DNA of 64,000 nucleotides from Labilithrix sp. (lineage in GTDB: Bacteria; Myxococcota_A; Polyangia; Polyangiales; Polyangiaceae), in the NCBI GenBank assembly GCA_019637195.1, contig JAHBWA010000002.1, forward strand, positions 1 to 64,000. Direction: 5' to 3'. Positions 4,576 through 61,070 of this stretch are shown in pieces. Every line of letters starts with the position of its first letter. Position 1 is the stretch's first letter. The notes beneath the pieces were generated by a model. It did not search any database. It was not told where the DNA came from and was given only the letters and a program-made list of their open reading frames with translations. Made by a program: the position numbers and the translations under genes.

Positions 4576-5784
4576 TCAGAGCGTCGACTTGGTGGCCACG
4601 AGGTGCGGGGCGAGCAGCTTCATCTGCGGCTTGTCCTGGCCGTTCTCGGGGTGGAGCGAGAACGGGTAGTTCTTCCGCCAGGCGGGCCCGGCGGCCCACC
4701 AGAGCCAGCCGACGAGGACGTCGCTCGCCTCCATCATCGACGCCAACATGTCCTCGATCGCGGCGTTGCACGTCGGGTTGTCGCCACCCGCGAGCTCGCC
4801 GACGAAGCCTTTCCTGCCGGTGGCGCGCAGCCAGTCGACGAAGCCGGCGAGGCGCTCGCGGCCGATCGTCTTGCTGATGCACTGGTCGGATTTTCCGCCC
4901 GAGTCCGGATCGAGGTACTGGTGCACCTCGAAGAGCAGGTTGTCGGCCGGGTCCACGATGTCGAGCATCGCCTGCGCGTTGGGCGTGCCGTAGTAGTTGC
5001 TCGCCCAGCTGTGAGCGCCCGTCCAGCCGTTGCCGGGCACGTGAATGACGTTCCCCGCTCCCGCGGCGCGAATGGCGGCGATCGCGGCGTTGGCGCTGGT
5101 GACCCACTGCTCCGTGCGCATGTTGTTCGGCTCGTTGACGAGGTTGAACATGACGCGCGGGTTGTCGCCGTAGCGGAGCGCGAGACGGCGCCACAGATCG
5201 GCGAAGGCGGCCGCGGGGACCTCGGCGGATCCGACGAGGACGCCGTAGTAGCGCGCGAAGTTGTGGGGGTTCAAGACGACCCACGCGCCCTTCGAGGTCG
5301 CGTAGCCCACGAGCGCGTCGAGCTTCGCCAGGTACGGCGCCGTCAGCTCGCCGTACGCCGTCGGCTGGAGTCGCTCCCACTTGAACCCGACGCGGAACGT
5401 GTTCATCCCCTTCCCGACGAAGTAGTCGACCTCGGAGCTGGTCGGCCACCTGTAGTCCCTGCCCTCCGAGCCGGGGATCACGTCGCCGAACTCCGCGCCG
5501 GCGAGGTTGACGCCGCGGAAGGGCATCGGGATCGATTCGGGTTCGCCCTCGGGAGGCGTCGAAGGCCCGTCGCCGTCGGGTGCGCTGGGGCCGAAGTCGC
5601 CCGAGCGAGGAGGGACCGTCCTGTCGTCAGGGAGCTCCGCGCCCGTCGTCGTCGCGCCGCTGCTCGGGGGCGATGACCGATCGGCGTCGGACGCGCCGCC
5701 CTGCGGACCACCGCAGGCGACGACGAGAAACAGGGCGGCGAGCGCGCAGCCGCGCGCGGTGTCGAGTGCTCGAGAAGCGGACAT
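4576..5784 (-). CDS. Glycoside hydrolase family 5 lipoprotein
   Basis: A 402-aa protein. The signal ends at lipobox LVVAC (Cys24), followed by a Ser/Pro/Gly linker to about residue 85 and a GH5-type TIM barrel (about 88-400). The acid/base Glu is in LVNEP (Glu218), the nucleophile is probably Glu330 in VGELAGG, and LNPHN and EVHQY fit GH5 cellulase/mannanase motifs. It should cleave a beta-1,4-glycan at the cell surface; the substrate cannot be told from the sequence. ATG at 5784 gives the best signal peptide; an in-frame GTG at 5811 would add nine residues. Confidence 0.88.
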   Translation of the reverse strand: MSASRALDTARGCALAALFLVVACGGPQGGASDADRSSPPSSGATTTGAELPDDRTVPPRSGDFGPSAPDGDGPSTPPEGEPESIPMPFRGVNLAGAEFGDVIPGSEGRDYRWPTSSEVDYFVGKGMNTFRVGFKWERLQPTAYGELTAPYLAKLDALVGYATSKGAWVVLNPHNFARYYGVLVGSAEVPAAAFADLWRRLALRYGDNPRVMFNLVNEPNNMRTEQWVTSANAAIAAIRAAGAGNVIHVPGNGWTGAHSWASNYYGTPNAQAMLDIVDPADNLLFEVHQYLDPDSGGKSDQCISKTIGRERLAGFVDWLRATGRKGFVGELAGGDNPTCNAAIEDMLASMMEASDVLVGWLWWAAGPAWRKNYPFSLHPENGQDKPQMKLLAPHLVATKSTL

Positions 5785-6180
5785 CGGAGACCTTGGCGAT
5801 GGGTGAATCACGCGACGAGGGCGCCGAACGCGCCACGCTCACGCCGCGCAGCAGCGCGGGCGGCTCGTCAATCACGTGCGCGACTGTATTTGGCCGGCAG
5901 GGCTCTACAAAGCGCGACCAAGAAAATAGGGAGGAGCCGGGAGCACATGTTGGCAATCTGCCTCGAGCGCGCGAACCGCCGTGTTTCACGTGCGGGCCGG
6001 ATGAGCCTCGAGCGTGGAGTGCGCGCAAGACCGCCTCGCTCGCGCTGCCTCGAGCGCCGCGCGCCGCTCGAGCTTCGACGGCGGGCGAGCTCGCGACGAT
6101 CGTGAAGAGGAGCTCTCGGCGAGGTGGCCTCCGCTCGCGAGAACGCGCACTCGCTCGGCGCGAACGCGTACAATCGACGG
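5785..6180. other. Divergent intergenic region
   Basis: This 396-bp stretch separates the minus-strand glycosidase from the plus-strand lipoprotein gene. It has a relatively AT-rich patch (about 5882-5950) with a Shine-Dalgarno-like GGGAGGAG before an ATG at 5947. The 52-codon frame there is Arg-rich and looks like noise. TACAAT at 6169-6174 is a -10-like element for the 6181 gene. Nothing else is recognisable. Confidence 0.5.
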
Positions 6181-6891
6181 ATGCGGTGGGAGTCGAGAGG
6201 GATGGTCGCGGCGCTGCTCTTCGTCGCGCTCGCAGCCTGCGCGAAGAGCTCGAGCCACGCGCCGGCGGAGAGCCCGCCGCCGACGACGGCGGTGCCGATC
6301 GGCGTCGTCGCGCCGAGCGCCGGCCCCGAAGTGAGCTCTCCGCCGGAGACCGCCGCGAACGCCGACGACGACGGGCCGGCGTCCGCCGACGCCGAGCCGG
6401 GGCTTCGCCCGCCTCCGCCGGTGACGCCGCCGAGGCCGTGCGGCCTCACGGCGGTCCTGCAGGACGGCGGCGCCCAGACGAATGGACAACGCTTCGCGCT
6501 GACGCTGAAGAACACCGGCTCGAAGCCGCTTCGCCTCGTCGTTCCGGGCGACGGGAGCGACGTTGGGTGGAGGACGCCCGTCGTGACGTGGACCGCGACG
6601 ATGAACGGCGCGCCCGCGACGCCGCTCGAGGGCGGGCGCTGCGGGATGATGAACCGAATCGAGGCGAACGAGATCTTCACGCTCGCGCCCGGCGCGTCTC
6701 GGACCGTCAAGGATTGGGTCCCTCTGCCGTCGTTCGCGCCCGGCACCTATGACCTCACGCTCACCTACCGCAACGATCCGGGTCTCCAGGCGAGGAAGGG
6801 CGGCGGCGAGAGCGACGCCGTCAAGCGCCTCATCGCGGAGAGCGCGGCGTGCGAGGCGACGACCAACACGGTCCGCGTGACCTTGCCCTGA
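6181..6891 (+). CDS. Hypothetical lipoprotein
   Basis: A 236-aa protein. The signal peptide ends in LAACAKSS (lipobox Cys), followed by a long Pro/Ala/Ser linker and a beta-rich domain of about 140 residues with FALTLKNTGSKPLRLV, PGASRTVKDW and FAPGTYDLTLTY, patterns of immunoglobulin-like periplasmic folds. No enzyme motif is seen. The start is ATG 6181; an in-frame ATG seven codons later would also keep the signal. There is no Shine-Dalgarno; TACAAT ends 6 nt before the ATG, so the mRNA may be leaderless. Confidence 0.7.
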   Translation: MRWESRGMVAALLFVALAACAKSSSHAPAESPPPTTAVPIGVVAPSAGPEVSSPPETAANADDDGPASADAEPGLRPPPPVTPPRPCGLTAVLQDGGAQTNGQRFALTLKNTGSKPLRLVVPGDGSDVGWRTPVVTWTATMNGAPATPLEGGRCGMMNRIEANEIFTLAPGASRTVKDWVPLPSFAPGTYDLTLTYRNDPGLQARKGGGESDAVKRLIAESAACEATTNTVRVTLP

Positions 6892-6900
6892 GCGCCCGGC

Positions 6901-8358
6901 TCAGACCTCGCCTGCGGTCTCCGCCTCGGACGAGCTCGCCGCCGCGCCGCGCGCGACGTGGGGCGGGAGGAGCAGGCGCCCCGCCGTCAGGCCGACGATC
7001 ATCGCGAGCACCGACGCGGTGAGGATCGCCAACTTGGCCTGCTCGAGCTTGTCGCCCGTCGGAAACGCGAGCGCGGCGACGAAGAGCGCCATCGTGAAGC
7101 CGATCCCCGCGACGAGCCCGAGCACGGTGAGCTCGCGCCACCCGACGCCGCGCGGGAGCGTCGCGATCCGCAGGCGAACCACCGCGAAGCACGCGGCGAG
7201 GATCCCGAGCGGCTTGCCGGCGACGAGGCCGACGACGATGCCCGCGCCGAGGAGCGACGGGACGGCCGCGCGCGCGTCGACGGCCACGCCCGCGTTGGCG
7301 AGCGCGAAGATCGGCATGATGACGAACGCGACCCATGGGTGGAGCAGCGCCTGGAGCCGGACCGTCGGGGCGAGCGCCTCGCGGCTCGCCAGGTCGATCC
7401 GCGCGGTCTCGAGCGCGAGGCGCTCGGGCGCGAGCTCGACCTCGAGCGCGAGCTCGACCTCTTCGACGGACCGCCGCGTGAGCGCGACGAGGCCCGCCGG
7501 CCCGAGCCAGGGCTTCGCGGGCGTGAGCAGACCGACGATGACGCCCGCGATCGTCGGGTGCACGCCCGAGCGGTACATGCCGAGCCAGACGACGGCGCCC
7601 GGGAGCACGTAGATCCATGCGCGTCGCACGCCGACGCGCTGCAAGACGAGGATCGCGGCGACACCTCCCGCCGCGACGACGAAGCCGGAGGTGTCGAGCG
7701 CGCCGGAGTAGAAGGTCGCGATGACGACGATGCTTCCGATGTCGTCGATGATCGCGAGCGCGAGCAGGAGCACGCGGAGCGCCGGTGGGACGCGCTTGCC
7801 GAGGATCGCGAGGACGCCGACGGCGAAGGCGATGTCGGTGGCCATCGGGACACCCCAGCCCGGTCGGTCCGCGGGGTCACCGCCGGCGATCGCCAGGTAG
7901 AGGAGCGCGGGCGCGGCCATGCCGCCGAGCGCCGCCGCGAGCGGGAGCGCGGCCCGCCGGACGTTCGCGAGCTCGCCCGCGTGGATCTCGCGGCGGATCT
8001 CGAGGCCGACGACGAAGAAGAAGATCGTCATCAAGCCGTCGTTGATCCAGAAGTGGAGCGGGCGCTCGACCGTCGCGGCGCCGACGCGGAGACCGAGCGG
8101 GAGCTCGAGGAGGCGGTGGAACGACTCGGACCAGGCCGAGCTCGCGATCGCGATCGCGAGGGCCGCCATGCCGAGGAGCACGATCCCGCTCGAGGCCTCG
8201 ATCCGGAGGAACGCCTCGATGGGCGTGACCAGTCGCCGCGCCCAGCGCCGGGCAGCCGGCGAGACGCCGGGCGGCGTTTGCATCGGGCGCTCCGAGTCGA
8301 GCGGGGCCTCCAGCGCGCGGGGCGGCTCCGCGCGGCCCTCGGGATCGTCTCCTGCCAT
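6901..8358 (-). CDS. nhaA: Na+/H+ antiporter NhaA
   Basis: A 485-aa inner-membrane antiporter. The family's paired aspartates are in LAIIDDIGS (Asp205/Asp206), and the conserved Asp175 is in MATDIAFAVG. The usual dozen hydrophobic helices are present. A charged N-terminal tail of about 40 residues and a C-terminal extension make it longer than E. coli NhaA (388 aa). Start at ATG 8358 is fixed by GGAGGA about 8 nt upstream; the frame is open to 8643 but that part is low-complexity. It exchanges Na+ for protons in pH and salt homeostasis. It is convergent with the 6181 lipoprotein gene. Confidence 0.95.
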   Translation of the reverse strand: MAGDDPEGRAEPPRALEAPLDSERPMQTPPGVSPAARRWARRLVTPIEAFLRIEASSGIVLLGMAALAIAIASSAWSESFHRLLELPLGLRVGAATVERPLHFWINDGLMTIFFFVVGLEIRREIHAGELANVRRAALPLAAALGGMAAPALLYLAIAGGDPADRPGWGVPMATDIAFAVGVLAILGKRVPPALRVLLLALAIIDDIGSIVVIATFYSGALDTSGFVVAAGGVAAILVLQRVGVRRAWIYVLPGAVVWLGMYRSGVHPTIAGVIVGLLTPAKPWLGPAGLVALTRRSVEEVELALEVELAPERLALETARIDLASREALAPTVRLQALLHPWVAFVIMPIFALANAGVAVDARAAVPSLLGAGIVVGLVAGKPLGILAACFAVVRLRIATLPRGVGWRELTVLGLVAGIGFTMALFVAALAFPTGDKLEQAKLAILTASVLAMIVGLTAGRLLLPPHVARGAAASSSEAETAGEV

Positions 8359-53100: not shown

Positions 53101-53115
53101 TGAAAATGGTTTTCA
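53101..53115 (+). promoter_or_regulatory. Fur-box-like dyad
   Basis: TGAAAAT-G-GTTTTCA, a 7-1-7 dyad close to TGATAAT-n-ATTATCA (11 of 14 half-site bases). It lies in the divergent 272-bp gap, 91 bp before the plus-strand lipoprotein gene. The surrounding is markedly AT-rich for this genome. Confidence 0.55.
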
Positions 53116-53205
53116 ACTTCAGACTGGTGAGCTACAGCGACGCTCACGGAAGAGGCGGACCAACGGCGGTCGGCCCAGCTCGTCGACACGACGGAAGGAA
53201 CAGCG

Positions 53206-54687
53206 ATGCAGCAGCGTGGCTTGATGGTTGGCTTCATGGCGCTCGCGATGAGCGCAGGGCTCGTGATCGCCTGTGGGGACGACGACGACGGCTCGAACAC
53301 GAACGTCACCCCGGACGGCGGCTCGCAGACACCCGACAGCGGCTCCACGCCGCCGGACACCGACGCCGGGAACCCCACCCCGGACGCGGCGCCCGACGCC
53401 CCGACGGCGGCGAGCGATCCGATCACGCCGCTGACGACCACGCAGTTCTCGAACGCGTTCAACCCGTACGGCCTCATCTACGCGAGCGACGGCTTCATCT
53501 ACGCGAGCGGCGCCACCCAGACGAACGACGGCCGCAGGCTCGCGGTCTGGCGCTTCAAGGACGGCGCGCTGGACGCCACGTTCGGCGCCGACGGCGTCCT
53601 CTCCCACCCGACCCTCGACGGCACGTCGTTCGACCTCGTCGAGGTGTCGGCCGGCAACTTCGTCGTGCAGGCGGTCTCGGCCAACAAGGTCTACCTGGTG
53701 AAGCTCACCAAGGCCAACGACGGATCGTTCTCGTTCGACACCCCGGTCTTCGTCCGGTTCGGCTACGACGAGGGCGACGCGCAGACCTACGCCTCGTGGG
53801 GCATCGGGCTCGACAAGAGCACCGCGGCGACGCCGAAGATCGTCGTCTTCGCGCACGGCACCCCGCCGGCGAGCGAGGCGCGCACGGACGCCGACCGCTG
53901 GATCACGCGCGTCGACGCCACCACCCTGGCGTTCGACGCTGCCTTCAACGGCGGCGCGCCGTACACGTCCAACGCAGCAGGCGGCACCATCGCCGACAAC
54001 ACGCGGCGCGGCCTCGTCCTCGCGGACGGCAGCATCGTGTCGTCGGGCTACGCGAACTTCGGAGCGGGCGAGGGCAACCACGTCATCCTCATCCGCCTCC
54101 TCCCGAACGGCACGCCCGACCCGGCGTTCGGCTTCGGCATGACGCCGGCCGTCCCCGGCCAGACCAAGTTCAACCCCTTCAAGCCCGCCGGCTTCGCCGA
54201 GGCCTACAACGTCGTCCGGCAGTCGAACGGCCGCTACGTGACCACCGGCTACGGCGTGTCGAACTTCGACGTCGCGAGCACGGCCGTCGACCTCGTCTCC
54301 TTCGGCGTGAAGGCCGACGGCCTCGACGCGACCTACGGCCGCCAGGGCTCGTTCGCCTGGCAGAGCGAGGGCGACAAGAGCGCGGGCCTCGGCGCGAACC
54401 CGTTCATGGATCGCGGCCGCGACATGGCCGTCCTCCCCGACGATCGAATCGTTCACGGCGGCGTCTACGACGACTACGCGACGATCTTCGTCACCGACAA
54501 GGACGGCAAGCCGGACCCGAACGTCGGCAACGACGGCGTCCTCGAGTACGCCTTCCCGACCGCCTTCTTCAAGGTCACCGTCTCGCCCGACGGCAAGCAG
54601 ATCGCGGCGACCACCCAGAGCACGAACCAGGCTGACGGCGGCACGACGCAGCGCGCGGTGCTGGCCACGCTCAAGGTCGGGCAGTAA
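53206..54687 (+). CDS. Lipoprotein with delta-60-type repeats
   Basis: A 493-aa protein. The signal ends in IACGDDDDG (lipobox), then an Asp/Pro/Gly linker. From about residue 80 several delta-60-type repeats appear: FKDGALDATFGADGVLSHP, LLPNGTPDPAFGFG, VKADGLDATYGRQG, DKDGKPDPNVGNDGVL. It is probably a propeller on the cell surface. GGAAGGAA lies about 5 nt before ATG. It is the first gene of the probable iron operon, 14 bp before the imelysin gene. Confidence 0.83.
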   Translation: MQQRGLMVGFMALAMSAGLVIACGDDDDGSNTNVTPDGGSQTPDSGSTPPDTDAGNPTPDAAPDAPTAASDPITPLTTTQFSNAFNPYGLIYASDGFIYASGATQTNDGRRLAVWRFKDGALDATFGADGVLSHPTLDGTSFDLVEVSAGNFVVQAVSANKVYLVKLTKANDGSFSFDTPVFVRFGYDEGDAQTYASWGIGLDKSTAATPKIVVFAHGTPPASEARTDADRWITRVDATTLAFDAAFNGGAPYTSNAAGGTIADNTRRGLVLADGSIVSSGYANFGAGEGNHVILIRLLPNGTPDPAFGFGMTPAVPGQTKFNPFKPAGFAEAYNVVRQSNGRYVTTGYGVSNFDVASTAVDLVSFGVKADGLDATYGRQGSFAWQSEGDKSAGLGANPFMDRGRDMAVLPDDRIVHGGVYDDYATIFVTDKDGKPDPNVGNDGVLEYAFPTAFFKVTVSPDGKQIAATTQSTNQADGGTTQRAVLATLKVGQ

Positions 54688-54701
54688 AGAAGGTCCCGGC
54701 C

Positions 54702-55991
54702 ATGACCGCACGTTCCCCCTCCAGGCCCGTCGTCCTCGCCAGCATCGCGGGCGCCGCGCTCGCCGCCGTCACGGCGGTGGTCGCGTGCTCGACCGACGAT
54801 CCGCGCGCCGGCACCGGGACCGGTCCGACGAGCAGCGGGGGAACGTCGTCTTCGAGCAGCAGCAGCAGCGGCGGGATCGACGCGACCGCCCCGGACGGCC
54901 CCATCGACTGTGGGGCCGCGCCGGGCGCGGACGCGCCGTTCACGAAGGCGGCGCTGCTCTCCGCGGCCAGCAAGTGCGCGGCGTGGCACGCCTGCGAGTT
55001 CCAGAACGCGGCCACCGCGCTCCGGACCAGCGTGCGCGATCACGCCGCCGCTCCCGACGAGGCCAAGCTCACGGCGGCGCGCACGGCGTGGTCGAACGCG
55101 ATGGACGAGTGGTCCAAGATGGAGCTCTTCCAGTTCGGCCCGGTCGGCAGCCGCGCCGTCGACCAGTACCACGGGCGCGGGCTCCGGAGCTTCGTCCACC
55201 CCTGGCCCGATCACAACCGCTGCCAGGTCGAGGGGCAGATCGCGACGAAGGGCTGGGAAGCGGGGATGGACACGGTGCTCCCGAGCGCGCGTGGCCTCTA
55301 CGCGCTCGAGTACCTCCTCTACTACCCGGGGAGCGATCACGTCTGCCTGCCGGCGTCGGCGACGGGGCAAGCCTGGGACGCGTTCGCGCCGGCCGACCTC
55401 GCGAAGGCCAAGAGCGACTACGCCGTCGCGGTCGCCGACAACGTCGTCGCGCTCGCGCTCGAGATCCGCAACGTGTGGCTCCCCGAAGGTGAAGACTTCG
55501 AGAAGAAGCTCCTCGCGTTCGACGGGTACGGGAGCGAGCAGGAGACGCTGAACGTCGTCGCCTGGTCGCTCTTCTACGCCGAGAAGGAGATCAAGGACTT
55601 CAAGCTGGGCAGCCTCTCCGGCGTCCAGGCGCGCGCCTACGTCGCCGAGACGCCGTTCGGCGCGCGCGAGATCGAGAACATCCGCACGAACCTCCACGCG
55701 TTCCGCGCCCTCTTCCAGGGCTGCGGCGCGAACGGCGCGGGCGTCGGCTTCGACGACTGGCTCGTCGCGGCCGGTCAGGGCGAGCTCGCGAACGAGATGC
55801 TCGCGGCGCTCGTGCAGGCAGAGACCGCGGCCGGCGCGTTCCCCGCCTTCGCGCAGGCGACGGAGGCCCAGTTCCTCGAGCTCTACAACGCGATCAAGCC
55901 GCTCAGCGACCTCCTGAAGACGCGCTTCTTCGGCTCGGCGAGCCCGCTGAACTTGAAGCTTCCCGCCAGCGCCGCCAGTGACACCGACTGA
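54702..55991 (+). CDS. Imelysin (M75-like) lipoprotein
   Basis: A 429-aa protein. The signal ends VVACSTDD (lipobox), a Ser/Gly linker follows, then a helical imelysin domain (about 75-410): KMELFQFGPVGSRAVDQYH, ARGLYALEYLLYY, GEDFEKKLLAFDGYGSEQE and ETPFGAREIENIR. The GxHxxE motif of imelysins reads GLYALE here, with Tyr in the His position. Imelysins take part in iron or heme uptake at the envelope; none is shown to be a true peptidase in uptake. It is the second gene of the probable iron operon. Confidence 0.87.
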   Translation: MTARSPSRPVVLASIAGAALAAVTAVVACSTDDPRAGTGTGPTSSGGTSSSSSSSSGGIDATAPDGPIDCGAAPGADAPFTKAALLSAASKCAAWHACEFQNAATALRTSVRDHAAAPDEAKLTAARTAWSNAMDEWSKMELFQFGPVGSRAVDQYHGRGLRSFVHPWPDHNRCQVEGQIATKGWEAGMDTVLPSARGLYALEYLLYYPGSDHVCLPASATGQAWDAFAPADLAKAKSDYAVAVADNVVALALEIRNVWLPEGEDFEKKLLAFDGYGSEQETLNVVAWSLFYAEKEIKDFKLGSLSGVQARAYVAETPFGAREIENIRTNLHAFRALFQGCGANGAGVGFDDWLVAAGQGELANEMLAALVQAETAAGAFPAFAQATEAQFLELYNAIKPLSDLLKTRFFGSASPLNLKLPASAASDTD

Positions 55992-56079
55992 GCCAGCCGC
56001 CGCGCTCTCGCTCGAGGGCGCGGCACGCTCGTCCTTCCCGGAACGCACGGGGCCCCGCCGCCCGGCTAGCATCGGCCCG

Positions 56080-57525
56080 GTGAAAGCGCTCGGCGCCCTC
56101 GCGCGACGTCTCGAGACGGCGCTCCTCCGCCCGACCGACATCGCGTGGCTCGCCGCGTACCGCGCGCTCTTCGGGCTCGCGCTCGCGGTCTCGATGGAGC
56201 GGTTCCTCGCGTACGGCTGGATCGACACGCTGCTCGTCGCGCCGCGCTTTCGCTTCCACTACTGGGGCTTCGCGTGGGCCACGCCGCTCTCGTCGGGCGG
56301 GATGCACACGCTCTTCTGGTGCCTCGTCGGCCTCGCCCTCGCGATGGCCGCGGGTTTCGCGTTCCGCCTCACCGCGCCGCTGTTCGCCGCCGGGCTCACG
56401 TACATCCAGCTCATCGACGTCTCGACGTACCTGAACCACTACTACCTCGCCGGCCTCCTCACCTGGCTCCTCGCGCTGTCGCCCGCCAACCGCGCGTGGT
56501 CGGTCGACGCCTGGCTCCGCGCGCGCTGGCGCGCGTGGCGCGGGGGCGGGCACGCCAGCGATCGCGAGGTCGCGACGGCCTGGCTGATCCTCTTCCGCGT
56601 ACAGGTCGGCGCCGTGTACTTCTTCGCGGGGCTCGCCAAGGCGCAGAGCGACTGGCTCCTCCACGGCCAGCCGCTCGGCATCTGGCTCGGCGCGAGCACG
56701 AGCGTGCCGCTGCTCGGGAAGCTCTTCACCGTCGGCGGCGTCCCGCTCGCCATGAGCTGGTTCGGCTTCCTGTTCGACACGACGGTCGTGCTGTGGCTGT
56801 CGCTCCGCAAGACGCGGCCGTGGGCGTACGCGGTCGTCCTCGTCTTCCACGTGATGACGCGACTCCTGTTCGACATCGGGATGTTCCCACTCATCATGAG
56901 CCTCTCGGCGCTCGTGTTCTTCGACCCGCGGTGGCCGCGAGCGCTCGCGGCCCGGGTTCGTCGGTCGCCGCGCGACGTCGAGGTCCCCGCGCCCGCCGAC
57001 ACGACCTCCTCGGCCCCCCCTCCGTCCGCGTGGCGCGCGCGGCTCTCCCGCGTGGCCCTCGGCGTCGGCGCGCTCTACTGCGTCGTCCAGGTGCTCCTGC
57101 CGCTCCGCTGCCACCTCTACGGGGGAAACGTCCTCTGGCACGAGCAGGGGATGCGCTTCTCCTGGCGGGTGATGGTCCGGGCGAAGGGCGGCGCCAACAC
57201 GTTCCTCGTTCGCCAGAAGGAGACGGGCCGCGTCTTCCACGTCCCTCCCCGCGAATATTTGACTCCTTTCCAGGAGAACGAGATGTCCGGACAGCCGGAT
57301 CTCGTGCTTCAACTCGCGCACCACATCGGTCGCGATTTCGAGGAGCGCGGCTTCGGCCCGGTCGAGGTCCGCGTCGACTCGAAGGTCTCGCTCAACGGTC
57401 GCCCCGGCGCGCCGCTCATCGACCCCACGGTCGATCTCACGACGATGAACGACGGTCTCGGCCCCGCCGCCTGGCTCCTCCCCGCCCCCAACCAAGCGCC
57501 TCCCCCCACCCGGCCCGTGCTGTGA
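56080..57525 (+). CDS. HTTM-domain membrane protein (VKGC-like)
   Basis: About 481 aa. Horizontally transferred transmembrane (HTTM) domain with several helices: RPTDIAWLAAYRALFGLALA, RFLAYGWIDTLL, HYWGFAWATP, GAVYFFAGLAKAQSDWL. The C-terminal soluble tail WHEQGMRFSWRVMVRAKGG and PLIDPTVDLT resembles the end of vitamin-K carboxylase-like proteins. No carboxylase activity is shown in bacteria. GTG 56080 gives a usual start; GTG 55978 inside the imelysin end is the alternative. Its stop overlaps the TonB receptor start. Confidence 0.87.
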   Translation: MKALGALARRLETALLRPTDIAWLAAYRALFGLALAVSMERFLAYGWIDTLLVAPRFRFHYWGFAWATPLSSGGMHTLFWCLVGLALAMAAGFAFRLTAPLFAAGLTYIQLIDVSTYLNHYYLAGLLTWLLALSPANRAWSVDAWLRARWRAWRGGGHASDREVATAWLILFRVQVGAVYFFAGLAKAQSDWLLHGQPLGIWLGASTSVPLLGKLFTVGGVPLAMSWFGFLFDTTVVLWLSLRKTRPWAYAVVLVFHVMTRLLFDIGMFPLIMSLSALVFFDPRWPRALAARVRRSPRDVEVPAPADTTSSAPPPSAWRARLSRVALGVGALYCVVQVLLPLRCHLYGGNVLWHEQGMRFSWRVMVRAKGGANTFLVRQKETGRVFHVPPREYLTPFQENEMSGQPDLVLQLAHHIGRDFEERGFGPVEVRVDSKVSLNGRPGAPLIDPTVDLTTMNDGLGPAAWLLPAPNQAPPPTRPVL

Positions 57526-59804
57526 AACGCCTTCGCTCCCGCCCTCTCCCGCTCTCCGTCACCTGCCTCGCCGCGCTGGGCCTCGTCCTCGCGCCGTCGC
57601 GACGCGCCGCCGCCCAAGCCCCGCCGAGCGCGACTCCGGCCCCTGCCGCCGCGACCGAGCCGCCCGCGAGCCCGGGCGCGGCCGAGCCACCTGCAGACCC
57701 CTCGAAGTCGAACGATCCCGACGAGGTCTTCATCGCGGGCACCGCGCTCTCGCACACGGCGGGCTCGGCGCAAGTCATCAAGAAGGACCAGCTCGACCGA
57801 TTCGAGTACGACGATCCGACCGCGACGCTGATGCAGGTCCCCGGCGTCTACATCCGCGGCGAGGATGGCGTCGGGCTCCGCCCGAACATCGGTATCCGCG
57901 GCGCGAACCCGGACCGCAGCAAGAAGCTCACGCTGATGGAGGACGGGATCCTCATGGGCCCGGCGCCTTACTCGGCGCCCGCGGGCTACTACTTCCCGCT
58001 CGTCACCCGCATGACGCAGATGCGCGTGGTCAAGGGACCGGCGGCCATCGCCTACGGCCCGAACACCGTCGGCGGCGCGATCGACTTCGTCTCCCGGCCG
58101 ATCCCGACGCGCACGAGCGGGGCCGTCGACCTCGCGGCGGGACAGTACGGCTACGGCAAGGCGCACGCCTGGTTCGGCAGCAACGACGGCCGCCTCGGCT
58201 TCCTCGTCGAGGGCGTGCGCCTACAGAACACGGGCTTCGCCGAGCTTCCGAACGGCGCCGACACCGGGTCGACCCGCAACGACTGGATGATCAAGACGGC
58301 GTACACGATCGATCCGGACGCAAAGACGAAGCACCGGCTCCAGCTCAAGCTGTCGTACGCCGACGAGGTCTCGAACGAGACGTACCTGGGCCAGACCGAC
58401 GCCGACTTCCGCACGAACCCGTACCGCCGCTACCCCGCGAGCTCGCTCGATCAGATGAAGAACCACCGGACGGGGATCGTGGCGTCGCACACGATCGAGG
58501 GGCCGGGCTCGACGTACCAGATCAAGACGAGCGCCTACCGGTTCGACTACCAGCGCAAGTGGACGAAGCTGAACCACCTCGGCGGCGCCGCGGCGTCGAC
58601 GGTCCTCGCGAACCCCGACGATCCGAGCTTCTCCGGCTACTACGCGGTGATCGCGGGCCGGAACGACAGCGGCTCGGCCTCCGACACGCTCTTCATCGGC
58701 CCGAACGATCGCTCCTTCGTGAGCCAGGGCGTCCAGAGCGTCCTGTCGACGTCGGTGAACACGGGCCCGGTCGAGCACAAGCTCGAGAGCGGGCTCCGCT
58801 TCCACTACGACCACATCAAGCGCCTCCACACGGAGTCGGCGTTCCTGATGCAGAACGGCGCGCTGGTCCCCGCGGGCGAGTCGGTCGTCACCACGACCGA
58901 CAACTTCGCGAGCACCCACGCGATCGCGCTGCACATGACCGACGCGATGACCTGGCGGAGGCTCACCCTCACGCCGGGCGCGCGCGTCGAGTTCATCGGG
59001 TCGCGCACCGAGGACTACCGCTCGAACGAAGAAAGCGACCGCCTCGTCGCCGCGGTGATGCCGGGCATCGGCGCGTACTACGAGCTCTTGCAGAGCCTCG
59101 GCCTCCTCGCGGGCGTCTACCGCGGCTTCAGCCCGCCCGCGCCGGGCGCCGATCGGTTGACCAAGCCCGAGTACAGCGTCAACTACGAGGCGGGCGCGCG
59201 CTACACCCGCGGGGCTTCGCGCGCCGAGCTGATCGGCTTCTACAACGACTACTCGAACCTGACCGACACCTGCACGTTCGCGAGCGGCTGCGTGAACGCG
59301 AATTTCGATCGTCAGTTCGACGCCGGCAAGGCGCGCGTCTACGGCCTCGAGGCCTTCGTCGGGCACGAGCAGCGCCTCGGCGACCTCCGGCTCCCGCTGA
59401 CCGCCGCGTACACGCTCACCTACGGCGAGTTCCAGAGCGACTTCACCTCGCAGGACCCGATCTACGGCACCGTCCGCGCGGGCGACGAGCTGCCCTACAT
59501 CCCGCGAAACCAGCTCAACGTCACCGCCGCCGTCGAGCACGCGCGCGCGGGGCTGAACGCCGCGTTCAACTACGTCGCGCCGATGCGAGAGCAGGCCGGC
59601 AACCTCCCGCTCGAGCGCGCGGTCGCGACCGACGAGCAGGTCTGGGTGGACTTCGGCGGCTACGTGAACGCGCTCCGCTGGCTCCGCGTCTACGCGAACC
59701 TCCGCAACGCGTTCGGCGCCGAGAACATCGTCGGCCGCCGCCCCTACGGGGCGCGCGCGAACGCGCCGCGGTGGCTCCAGGTCGGCATGAAGGTCCAGTT
59801 CTAG
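57522..59804 (+). CDS. TonB-dependent receptor, FecA-like
   Basis: A 760-aa outer-membrane receptor. Signal peptide, Pro/Ala-rich linker, TonB-box-like DEVFIAG, plug domain (GSAQVIKKDQLDRFE, GVGLRPNIGIRGANPDRSK, TLMEDGILMGPAPYSAP, VVKGPAAIAYGPNTVGGAID), then a 22-strand barrel ending VGMKVQF. It resembles ferric-dicitrate/FecA-type receptors. GTG 57522 overlaps the HTTM TGA (GTGA). It is the last gene of the probable iron operon. Confidence 0.93.
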   Translation: MKRLRSRPLPLSVTCLAALGLVLAPSRRAAAQAPPSATPAPAAATEPPASPGAAEPPADPSKSNDPDEVFIAGTALSHTAGSAQVIKKDQLDRFEYDDPTATLMQVPGVYIRGEDGVGLRPNIGIRGANPDRSKKLTLMEDGILMGPAPYSAPAGYYFPLVTRMTQMRVVKGPAAIAYGPNTVGGAIDFVSRPIPTRTSGAVDLAAGQYGYGKAHAWFGSNDGRLGFLVEGVRLQNTGFAELPNGADTGSTRNDWMIKTAYTIDPDAKTKHRLQLKLSYADEVSNETYLGQTDADFRTNPYRRYPASSLDQMKNHRTGIVASHTIEGPGSTYQIKTSAYRFDYQRKWTKLNHLGGAAASTVLANPDDPSFSGYYAVIAGRNDSGSASDTLFIGPNDRSFVSQGVQSVLSTSVNTGPVEHKLESGLRFHYDHIKRLHTESAFLMQNGALVPAGESVVTTTDNFASTHAIALHMTDAMTWRRLTLTPGARVEFIGSRTEDYRSNEESDRLVAAVMPGIGAYYELLQSLGLLAGVYRGFSPPAPGADRLTKPEYSVNYEAGARYTRGASRAELIGFYNDYSNLTDTCTFASGCVNANFDRQFDAGKARVYGLEAFVGHEQRLGDLRLPLTAAYTLTYGEFQSDFTSQDPIYGTVRAGDELPYIPRNQLNVTAAVEHARAGLNAAFNYVAPMREQAGNLPLERAVATDEQVWVDFGGYVNALRWLRVYANLRNAFGAENIVGRRPYGARANAPRWLQVGMKVQF

Positions 59805-59840: not shown

Positions 59841-61070
59841 ATGCCGAGCGAAGCCCCCGGCCCCCGACCGACATCCGAGCGCGCGATCGTCTTCTGCGTC
59901 GGCGCCGTTCAGTTCGTGAACATCCTCGACTTCATGATCGTCATGCCGCTCGGGCCTGACTTCGCGAAGGCGCTCGGCATCCCGCTCTCGCAGCTCGGCT
60001 ACGTCGGCGGCAGCTACACCGCCGCCGCGTGCGTCTCCGGGCTCGCCGGCGCGTTCTTCCTCGACCGCTTCGATCGGAAGAAGGCGCTCGGCGTCACGCT
60101 CGCCGGCCTCGTGCTCGGCACGCTCGCCGGCGCGTTCGCGCACGGGCTCGGCACGCTCATGCTCGCGCGCGTCGTCGCGGGCGCGTTCGGCGGGCCGGCG
60201 ACCTCGCTCTCGTATTCGATCGTCGCCGACGTGATCCCGATCGAGCGCCGCGGCAAGGCGATGGGCGCCGTCATGGGCGCCTTCTCGGTGGCGTCCGTGC
60301 TCGGCGTCCCGGCCGGCCTCGAGCTCGCCCGCCAGGGCTCGTGGAAGATGCCGTTCATCGCGGTGGCGCTCCTCGGCGCGGTCCTCGGGACCTTCGCGCA
60401 GCTCGTGCTGCCCCGGATGTCCGGACACCTCACCCGCGCGCGGCCGCGGACGGCCGGCGAGGACATCCTCCGGCTCCTTCGCCCCGACGTCGGCGTCGCG
60501 CTCATGACGACCTTCTTCGTGATGGCCTCGGGCTTCGTCCTCATCCCGAACATCTCGGCGTACTTGCTCGGCAACCTGAGCTACCCGCGCGAGCGCCTCG
60601 GCCTGCTCTATCTCGCGGGAGGCGTCGTGAGCTTCTTCACGCTGCGCGGCGGAGGGAGGCTGGTCGATCGAAACGGCTCGGCGCGCGTCGGATCCCTCGG
60701 GACGCTCCTGATCGCGACGGCGATCTACCTCGGCTTCATTCGGTCCCCGCCGGCGCTGCCGATCATGGCGATCTTCATCCTCTTCATGATCGCGAGCGGC
60801 CTGCGCAACGTGTCGCTCAACACGCTGATGAGCCGCGTCCCGGGCGCGGAGGAGCGCGCGCGGTTCTCGTCGATGCAGTCGGCCGTTCAGCACCTCGCGG
60901 CGTCGGTGGCGGCGTTCGCGGCGGCGCAGCTGCTCCACGAGCTGCCGGGTGGCCGGCTCGAGGGCATCCCCGCCGTGGCGTCGACCGCGATCGGGCTGGG
61001 CGCGATCGTGATCCCGCTCATGTGGCTCGTCGAGCGCCGCGTGAAGCGCAAGGCGGCGAGCCTCGGCTGA
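59841..61070 (+). CDS. MFS transporter
   Basis: A 409-aa inner-membrane transporter with 12 helices. FVNILDFMIVMPLGPDFAKAL and FLDRFDRKKALGVTLAG (motif A) and GVPAGLELARQGSWKMPF (motif C-like) match drug/sugar efflux MFS proteins (DHA1 type). The substrate is unknown. It starts 36 bp after the TonB receptor stop and could be co-transcribed. Confidence 0.9.
   Translation: MPSEAPGPRPTSERAIVFCVGAVQFVNILDFMIVMPLGPDFAKALGIPLSQLGYVGGSYTAAACVSGLAGAFFLDRFDRKKALGVTLAGLVLGTLAGAFAHGLGTLMLARVVAGAFGGPATSLSYSIVADVIPIERRGKAMGAVMGAFSVASVLGVPAGLELARQGSWKMPFIAVALLGAVLGTFAQLVLPRMSGHLTRARPRTAGEDILRLLRPDVGVALMTTFFVMASGFVLIPNISAYLLGNLSYPRERLGLLYLAGGVVSFFTLRGGGRLVDRNGSARVGSLGTLLIATAIYLGFIRSPPALPIMAIFILFMIASGLRNVSLNTLMSRVPGAEERARFSSMQSAVQHLAASVAAFAAAQLLHELPGGRLEGIPAVASTAIGLGAIVIPLMWLVERRVKRKAASLG

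Follow-up and report, generated by a model that had tools for sequence, protein, structure and literature searches.

What is a relative of the human blood-clotting carboxylase doing beside genes for iron uptake? The question is raised by a 64,000-nucleotide stretch of Labilithrix sp. DNA (contig JAHBWA010000002.1, positions 1 to 64,000; hereafter the window), in which four genes encoding a delta-60 repeat lipoprotein, an imelysin, an HTTM membrane protein and a TonB-dependent receptor follow a site resembling a Fur box. The HTTM protein is a homologue of vitamin K-dependent gamma-glutamyl carboxylase, known in humans as GGCX, the vitamin K enzyme through which clotting proteins of the blood become active. 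Our answer, to which we give about an even chance, is a Fur-controlled iron-acquisition operon with an accessory carboxylase that acts most likely on the imelysin. The iron-uptake and Fur part of this answer is well supported.

A vitamin K-dependent carboxylase homologue

The third gene product was labeled an HTTM protein in the original prediction. The HTTM domain is present (PF05090, E 1e-69), but the label missed the lumenal domain of vitamin K-dependent gamma-carboxylase (PF22777, E 1e-45); both matches are above the cut-off. Human GGCX was matched at E 4e-31 (phmmer, PDB sequences) up to human residue 490 of 758, the bacterial protein being 481 aa long. An AlphaFold2 model (mean predicted local distance difference test score, pLDDT, of 93) found only GGCX entries in the PDB below E 0.001, with template modeling (TM) scores up to 0.80 of the query.

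The roles of human residues, among them the catalytic base K218 and H160 of the Glu-binding pocket, were taken from PMC12589487 and mapped onto 71 bacterial sequences. K218, N159, H160, W223, F286, and F299 are identical in all 71, V210 and F294 are kept in 70, and G259 in 69. The window protein shares the fold of GGCX, and the bacterial relatives keep its catalytic Lys, N159/H160 and most of the vitamin K (quinone) pocket. They differ in the absent C99-C450 disulfide, in K217 (mostly Ala) and M401 (Val), and in that the bacterial homologue sits in an iron operon. This homologue is probably an active vitamin K-type enzyme facing the periplasm.

Conservation of the gene neighborhood

Two samples were analyzed. 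The first comprises 46 carboxylase matches in 29 carrier genomes among 58 genomes searched (own genome included), and the second 80 named loci of GTDB genomes, for which the carboxylase served as the only query; these are the best 80 of at least 556 relatives. Combined and freed of duplicates, they hold 125 carboxylase genes.

The gene neighborhood recurs in other genomes, as the original prediction would have it. An imelysin gene adjoins the carboxylase gene in 108 of the 116 loci with enough upstream sequence, and in 102 of these 108 it lies immediately upstream on the same strand; a TonB receptor gene adjoins it in 84 of the 109 loci with both flanks. The commonest order, seen in 62 loci, is DUF4856 lipoprotein, imelysin, carboxylase, and receptor. 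A delta-60 protein replaces DUF4856 in 11 loci, including the window. Its recurrence as the first gene in myxobacteria, with DUF4856 in that place in most other operons, supports the earlier proposal that the delta-60 lipoprotein belongs to the iron system.

A second operon type contains two imelysin genes and a carboxylase gene, with a PF06537 di-haem oxidoreductase gene between the imelysin genes on contig C177 of the same genome. This genome encodes three full carboxylase genes, each with an imelysin, one of them split over C177 and, presumably, contig C114. Named carriers include Myxococcota, Bacteroidota and metagenome-assembled genomes (MAGs) of Bdellovibrionaceae, a gammaproteobacterium and Chloroflexi. 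Imelysin was present in all 29 genomes with the carboxylase versus 10 of the 29 others (Fisher 4e-8, kinship ignored). No other partner is shared by almost every carboxylase operon, including the two-imelysin operons and the Chloroflexi MAG, where the carboxylase gene is divergent to two imelysin genes (the nearer product ending in DTDGDSMR) and no TonB receptor was found within the fetched flank.

More distant homologues on Paracoccus and Bernardetia plasmids are orphans, so the iron link holds for the studied branch but not for bacterial carboxylase homologues in general. The Paracoccus homologue (locus L270, 6446-8314) adjoins a DUF393 gene, and its annotated flank contains no iron genes. 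In a Roseivirga MAG (locus L169, 480-3165), DUF4856 is followed directly by the carboxylase and no imelysin was detected between them. Two other markers were rejected. VKOR is uninformative as a carboxylase companion because it occurs irrespective of the carboxylase (50 of 58 relatives), and the HTTM domain alone does not mark the system, as the two other HTTM genes of the genome have no imelysin or receptor nearby.

The imelysin and the receptor

The identities of all four gene products were confirmed by Pfam and NCBIfam profiles, the delta-60 NCBIfam score (74.4) being slightly under its cut-off of 76.5. The window imelysin matches PF09375 at E 1e-26, and its model matches the solved imelysins 7xrx, 3pf0, and 4ecg at about E 1e-7. 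The carboxylase-linked imelysins belong to the IPPA-like branch described by Xu et al. (PMC3143127), with a GxxxxE motif that has lost its His; the first imelysin of the two-imelysin operons has GxHxxE in 16 of 16 cases.

The partner imelysins end in D-x-D in 98 of 99 and 16 of 16 cases (114 of 115 in total), compared with none of the 16 GxHxxE imelysins. Model confidence is lower (73) over the last nine residues of the window imelysin, and residues 384-389 of IPPA are disordered in the 3pf0 crystal (PMC3143127). Within one branch of imelysins the tail hardly varies from phylum to phylum. The idea of a substrate tail specific to the carboxylase had to be rejected: the tail also occurs in imelysins of carboxylase-free operons and genomes and in the Psychrobacter protein 3pf0. 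It is a clade feature and therefore does not single out the carboxylase.

The plug of the receptor starts at residue 76, and no signaling domain was matched among the Pfam and NCBIfam profiles. The closest solved receptor structure is FecA; against the NCBIfam FecA equivalog the protein scores 106 bits, under the cut-off of 1100.

Regulation by Fur

The Fur-box-like dyad that had been noted ahead of the four genes is real. TGAAAATGGTTTTCA is a 7-1-7 dyad with six of seven pairs matching, located 90 bp upstream of the first gene. It scores 13/14 against TGAAAATNATTTTCA, with 10/14 for the runner-up site in the window, and with 45% GC (vs 71%; rank 0.006%) the 60-bp patch around it is one of the richest in AT. 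When one mismatch is allowed, TGAAAATGNTTTTCA is limited to six distinct places in the 10.1-Mb genome, two of which lie on contig C177 upstream of the second operon with its two imelysins and carboxylase; the reversed control pattern occurs at none. The genome also encodes a FUR-family protein.

We should note that the window is not independent evidence for the dyad, because the TGAAAATNATTTTCA consensus was derived from the window and its own genome. Within 600 bp around the operon start, the best TGAAAATNATTTTCA match reaches at least 12/14 in 29 and at least 11/14 in 43 of 62 high-GC operons, compared with 0.4% and 0.8%, respectively, of 2986 background windows from the same loci. For the 41 low-GC loci the comparison was with a palindrome close to the Riemerella Fur box (TTAGAATNATTCTAA), which reaches 12/14 in 17 loci (background 1.1%) and 11/14 in 37 (background 9.5%). 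Finally, the Fur-regulated list of Riemerella anatipestifer includes RAYM_09779 (TonB receptor), RAYM_09784 (vitamin K-dependent gamma-carboxylase), RAYM_09789 (imelysin), and RAYM_09794 (hypothetical protein) (PMC5609570). The dyads of orthologous operons, the dyad at the second imelysin-carboxylase operon and this list together support the Fur control proposed originally.

On contig C177 (locus L056), two HmuY-like genes (5077-7109) point away from the operon with two imelysins, di-haem oxidoreductase, and carboxylase, and two Fur-like dyads (4826 and 4897) lie between these genes and the operon. On contig C360 of the same genome (near 91867 and 93898), an S4-like ribosomal protein gene is present twice, each copy preceded by a one-mismatch dyad that could be a Zur or Fur site; the products start with MSRFTGPRV and the genes adjoin histidine-kinase-like genes. 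S4-like ribosomal protein genes are of a kind that can be zinc-controlled.

Proposed mechanism and alternative explanations

That the HTTM protein may modify the ligand, as put forward in the original prediction, is only one possibility: its homology to vitamin K-dependent carboxylase would equally fit the modification of a partner protein, and some operons lack it. In the mechanism that we propose, the receptor would bring a ferric complex across the outer membrane, and the lipoproteins (delta-60 or DUF4856, and imelysin) would bind iron or hand it on, either on the surface of the membrane or within the periplasm. The carboxylase would be an inner-membrane protein whose lumenal domain extends into the periplasm, and it would use menaquinol and oxygen to make its strong base. 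Most likely, and this is the least certain step, it would carboxylate acidic residues of the neighboring imelysin and so improve metal binding. We infer this step from the constant pairing and the kept active site. A more specific version is rather unlikely, namely that menaquinol-dependent carboxylation, perhaps of the D-x-D tail (yielding beta-carboxyaspartate) or of a variable Glu, turns the imelysin into a metal-binding iron-uptake protein.

Several observations weigh against this proposal. Some operons of this type in relatives consist of lipoprotein, imelysin and receptor genes and lack the carboxylase, which is therefore a frequent accessory and not a necessity. Among the residues of the human enzyme, N158 of the Glu pocket is Leu in the bacterial relatives, Y395 is Met, Tyr, or Phe, and R436 is mostly Glu, Met, or Gln. 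Sequence and structure comparison found neither the propeptide-binding lobe, which in the human enzyme follows roughly at residue 490, nor the arch helices in the bacterial protein; both are features of the animal enzyme that the Pfam definition does not need. We read this as a retained catalytic core and a protein-recognition part that is altered or lost. When imelysins and receptors of carboxylase-bearing and carboxylase-free operons were aligned, no Glu column was specific to the former. Xu et al. report that two imelysins showed no ferric or heme binding by thermofluor (PMC3143127), and the third carboxylase operon of the genome, on contig C117, lacks the Fur-like dyad.

Some of these points fit another possible, somewhat doubtful explanation, in which the carboxylase homologue acts on iron or its small-molecule ligand and not on a protein, and its quinol-driven oxygen chemistry alters the ligand or the redox state of iron, as is supposed for EfeB and the di-haem oxidoreductase beside other imelysins. 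Other imelysin systems have a periplasmic redox enzyme (PMC3143127), and on C177 the operon with two imelysins also has PF06537. The enzyme retains the quinol pocket and lacks the propeptide-binding region, and none of the Glu residues of its partners follows its presence. However, the residues of the Glu-carboxylation site (N159, H160, and K218) are invariant too, and the C177 operon encodes both enzymes, so that one is not a simple replacement of the other. This explanation stays close to carboxylation of the imelysin.

It is improbable that the operon handles another metal or a broader set of metals under the control of Zur or Mur. The metal specificity of imelysins is unsettled (PMC3143127) and a one-mismatch dyad precedes an S4-like ribosomal protein gene, but FecA is the closest solved receptor, the Riemerella homologue is within the Fur regulon (PMC5609570), and the dyads on C177 lie in a region shared with two HmuY heme proteins. 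That the carboxylase homologue is a hitchhiker or an inactive relic in an operon working without it, as the carboxylase-free operons of relatives would allow, is very unlikely, since the near-invariant catalytic residues and the position between imelysin and receptor, kept across phyla, indicate selection for activity.

Comparison with known systems

One of the closest described counterparts of the window operon is that of Riemerella (RAYM_09794-09779), with the order hypothetical protein, imelysin, carboxylase, and TonB receptor in consecutive locus tags. It appears only as a table entry in the Fur regulon study, where the function of the carboxylase is not assigned, and its first gene is ‘hypothetical’ and not delta-60 (PMC5609570). 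The P. aeruginosa PA4370-4373 imelysin/DUF1111 operon and Leptospira lruB also combine imelysins with iron regulation (PMC3143127, PMC13066512). Operons of the PA4370-4373 type have two imelysins around a di-haem oxidoreductase, and the portions of these two sources drawn on here mention no carboxylase. The C177 operon is a carboxylase-bearing version of this arrangement. EfeUOB likewise joins an M75 domain protein to a redox enzyme, but the EfeU permease and the EfeB peroxidase are absent among the four genes of the operon. A vitamin K carboxylase homologue of Leptospira was reportedly found by Rishavy in 2005 to have altered activity. It is a further bacterial homologue, presumed to be horizontally acquired (PMC4555120).

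In the literature searched, imelysin iron uptake and a vitamin K enzyme are not described as one system, and imelysin and HTTM are never paired; carboxylase, TonB and iron come together in one paper. The operon adds a vitamin K enzyme to the imelysin kind of iron uptake, and its novelty is limited because of the Riemerella table and the known imelysin operons. What is gained is a large branch of bacterial carboxylases with an intact catalytic core, linked in several phyla to iron uptake under Fur control, and with it a testable role for a long-puzzling family. Carboxylation of the imelysin, if true, would be the native role of this group of bacterial homologues of GGCX. Knowing the role would also bear on the origin of vitamin K-dependent carboxylation.

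Operon layout and neighboring genes

The features of the operon are listed in Table 1. The four genes are packed as tightly as originally described, with a gap of 14 bp between the lipoprotein and imelysin genes and a GTGA overlap shared by the carboxylase end and the receptor start. The listed GTG start of the carboxylase gene leaves 88 bp after the imelysin gene, and an alternative GTG at 55978 overlaps the latter; we consider the listed start likely because the alignment of the relatives starts near there.

Table 1. Features of the imelysin-carboxylase operon and its upstream region (positions in the window).
Feature	Position	Strand	Remarks
Four-gene operon		+	delta-60 lipoprotein, imelysin, carboxylase homologue (HTTM), TonB receptor; tightly packed
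Fur-box-like dyad TGAAAATGGTTTTCA	53101..53115	.	90 bp upstream of first ATG (53206)
Delta-60/DUF5122 repeat lipoprotein, gene 1	53206..54687	+	lipobox VIAC-GDDDD; ATG start 53206
Imelysin (PF09375), lipoprotein, IPPA-like	54702..55991	+	GLYALE = GxxxxE, His lost
Imelysin C-terminal D-T-D tail	55980..55988	+	D-x-D at extreme C-terminus, conserved in imelysin clade
Vitamin K-dependent gamma-glutamyl carboxylase homologue	56080..57525	+	HTTM PF05090 and lumenal domain PF22777
H120 codon	56437..56439	+	human GGCX H160 (Glu-binding pocket), by residue mapping
K187 codon	56638..56640	+	human GGCX K218 (catalytic base), by residue mapping
TonB-dependent receptor	57522..59804	+	FecA-like plug and barrel

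The gene directly after the operon (59841-61070) was rejected as an operon member, as it was not found at the other loci scanned. It encodes a major facilitator superfamily transporter akin to MxcK, the exporter of myxochelin, with a score of 274 bits that is under the equivalog cut-off of 525.
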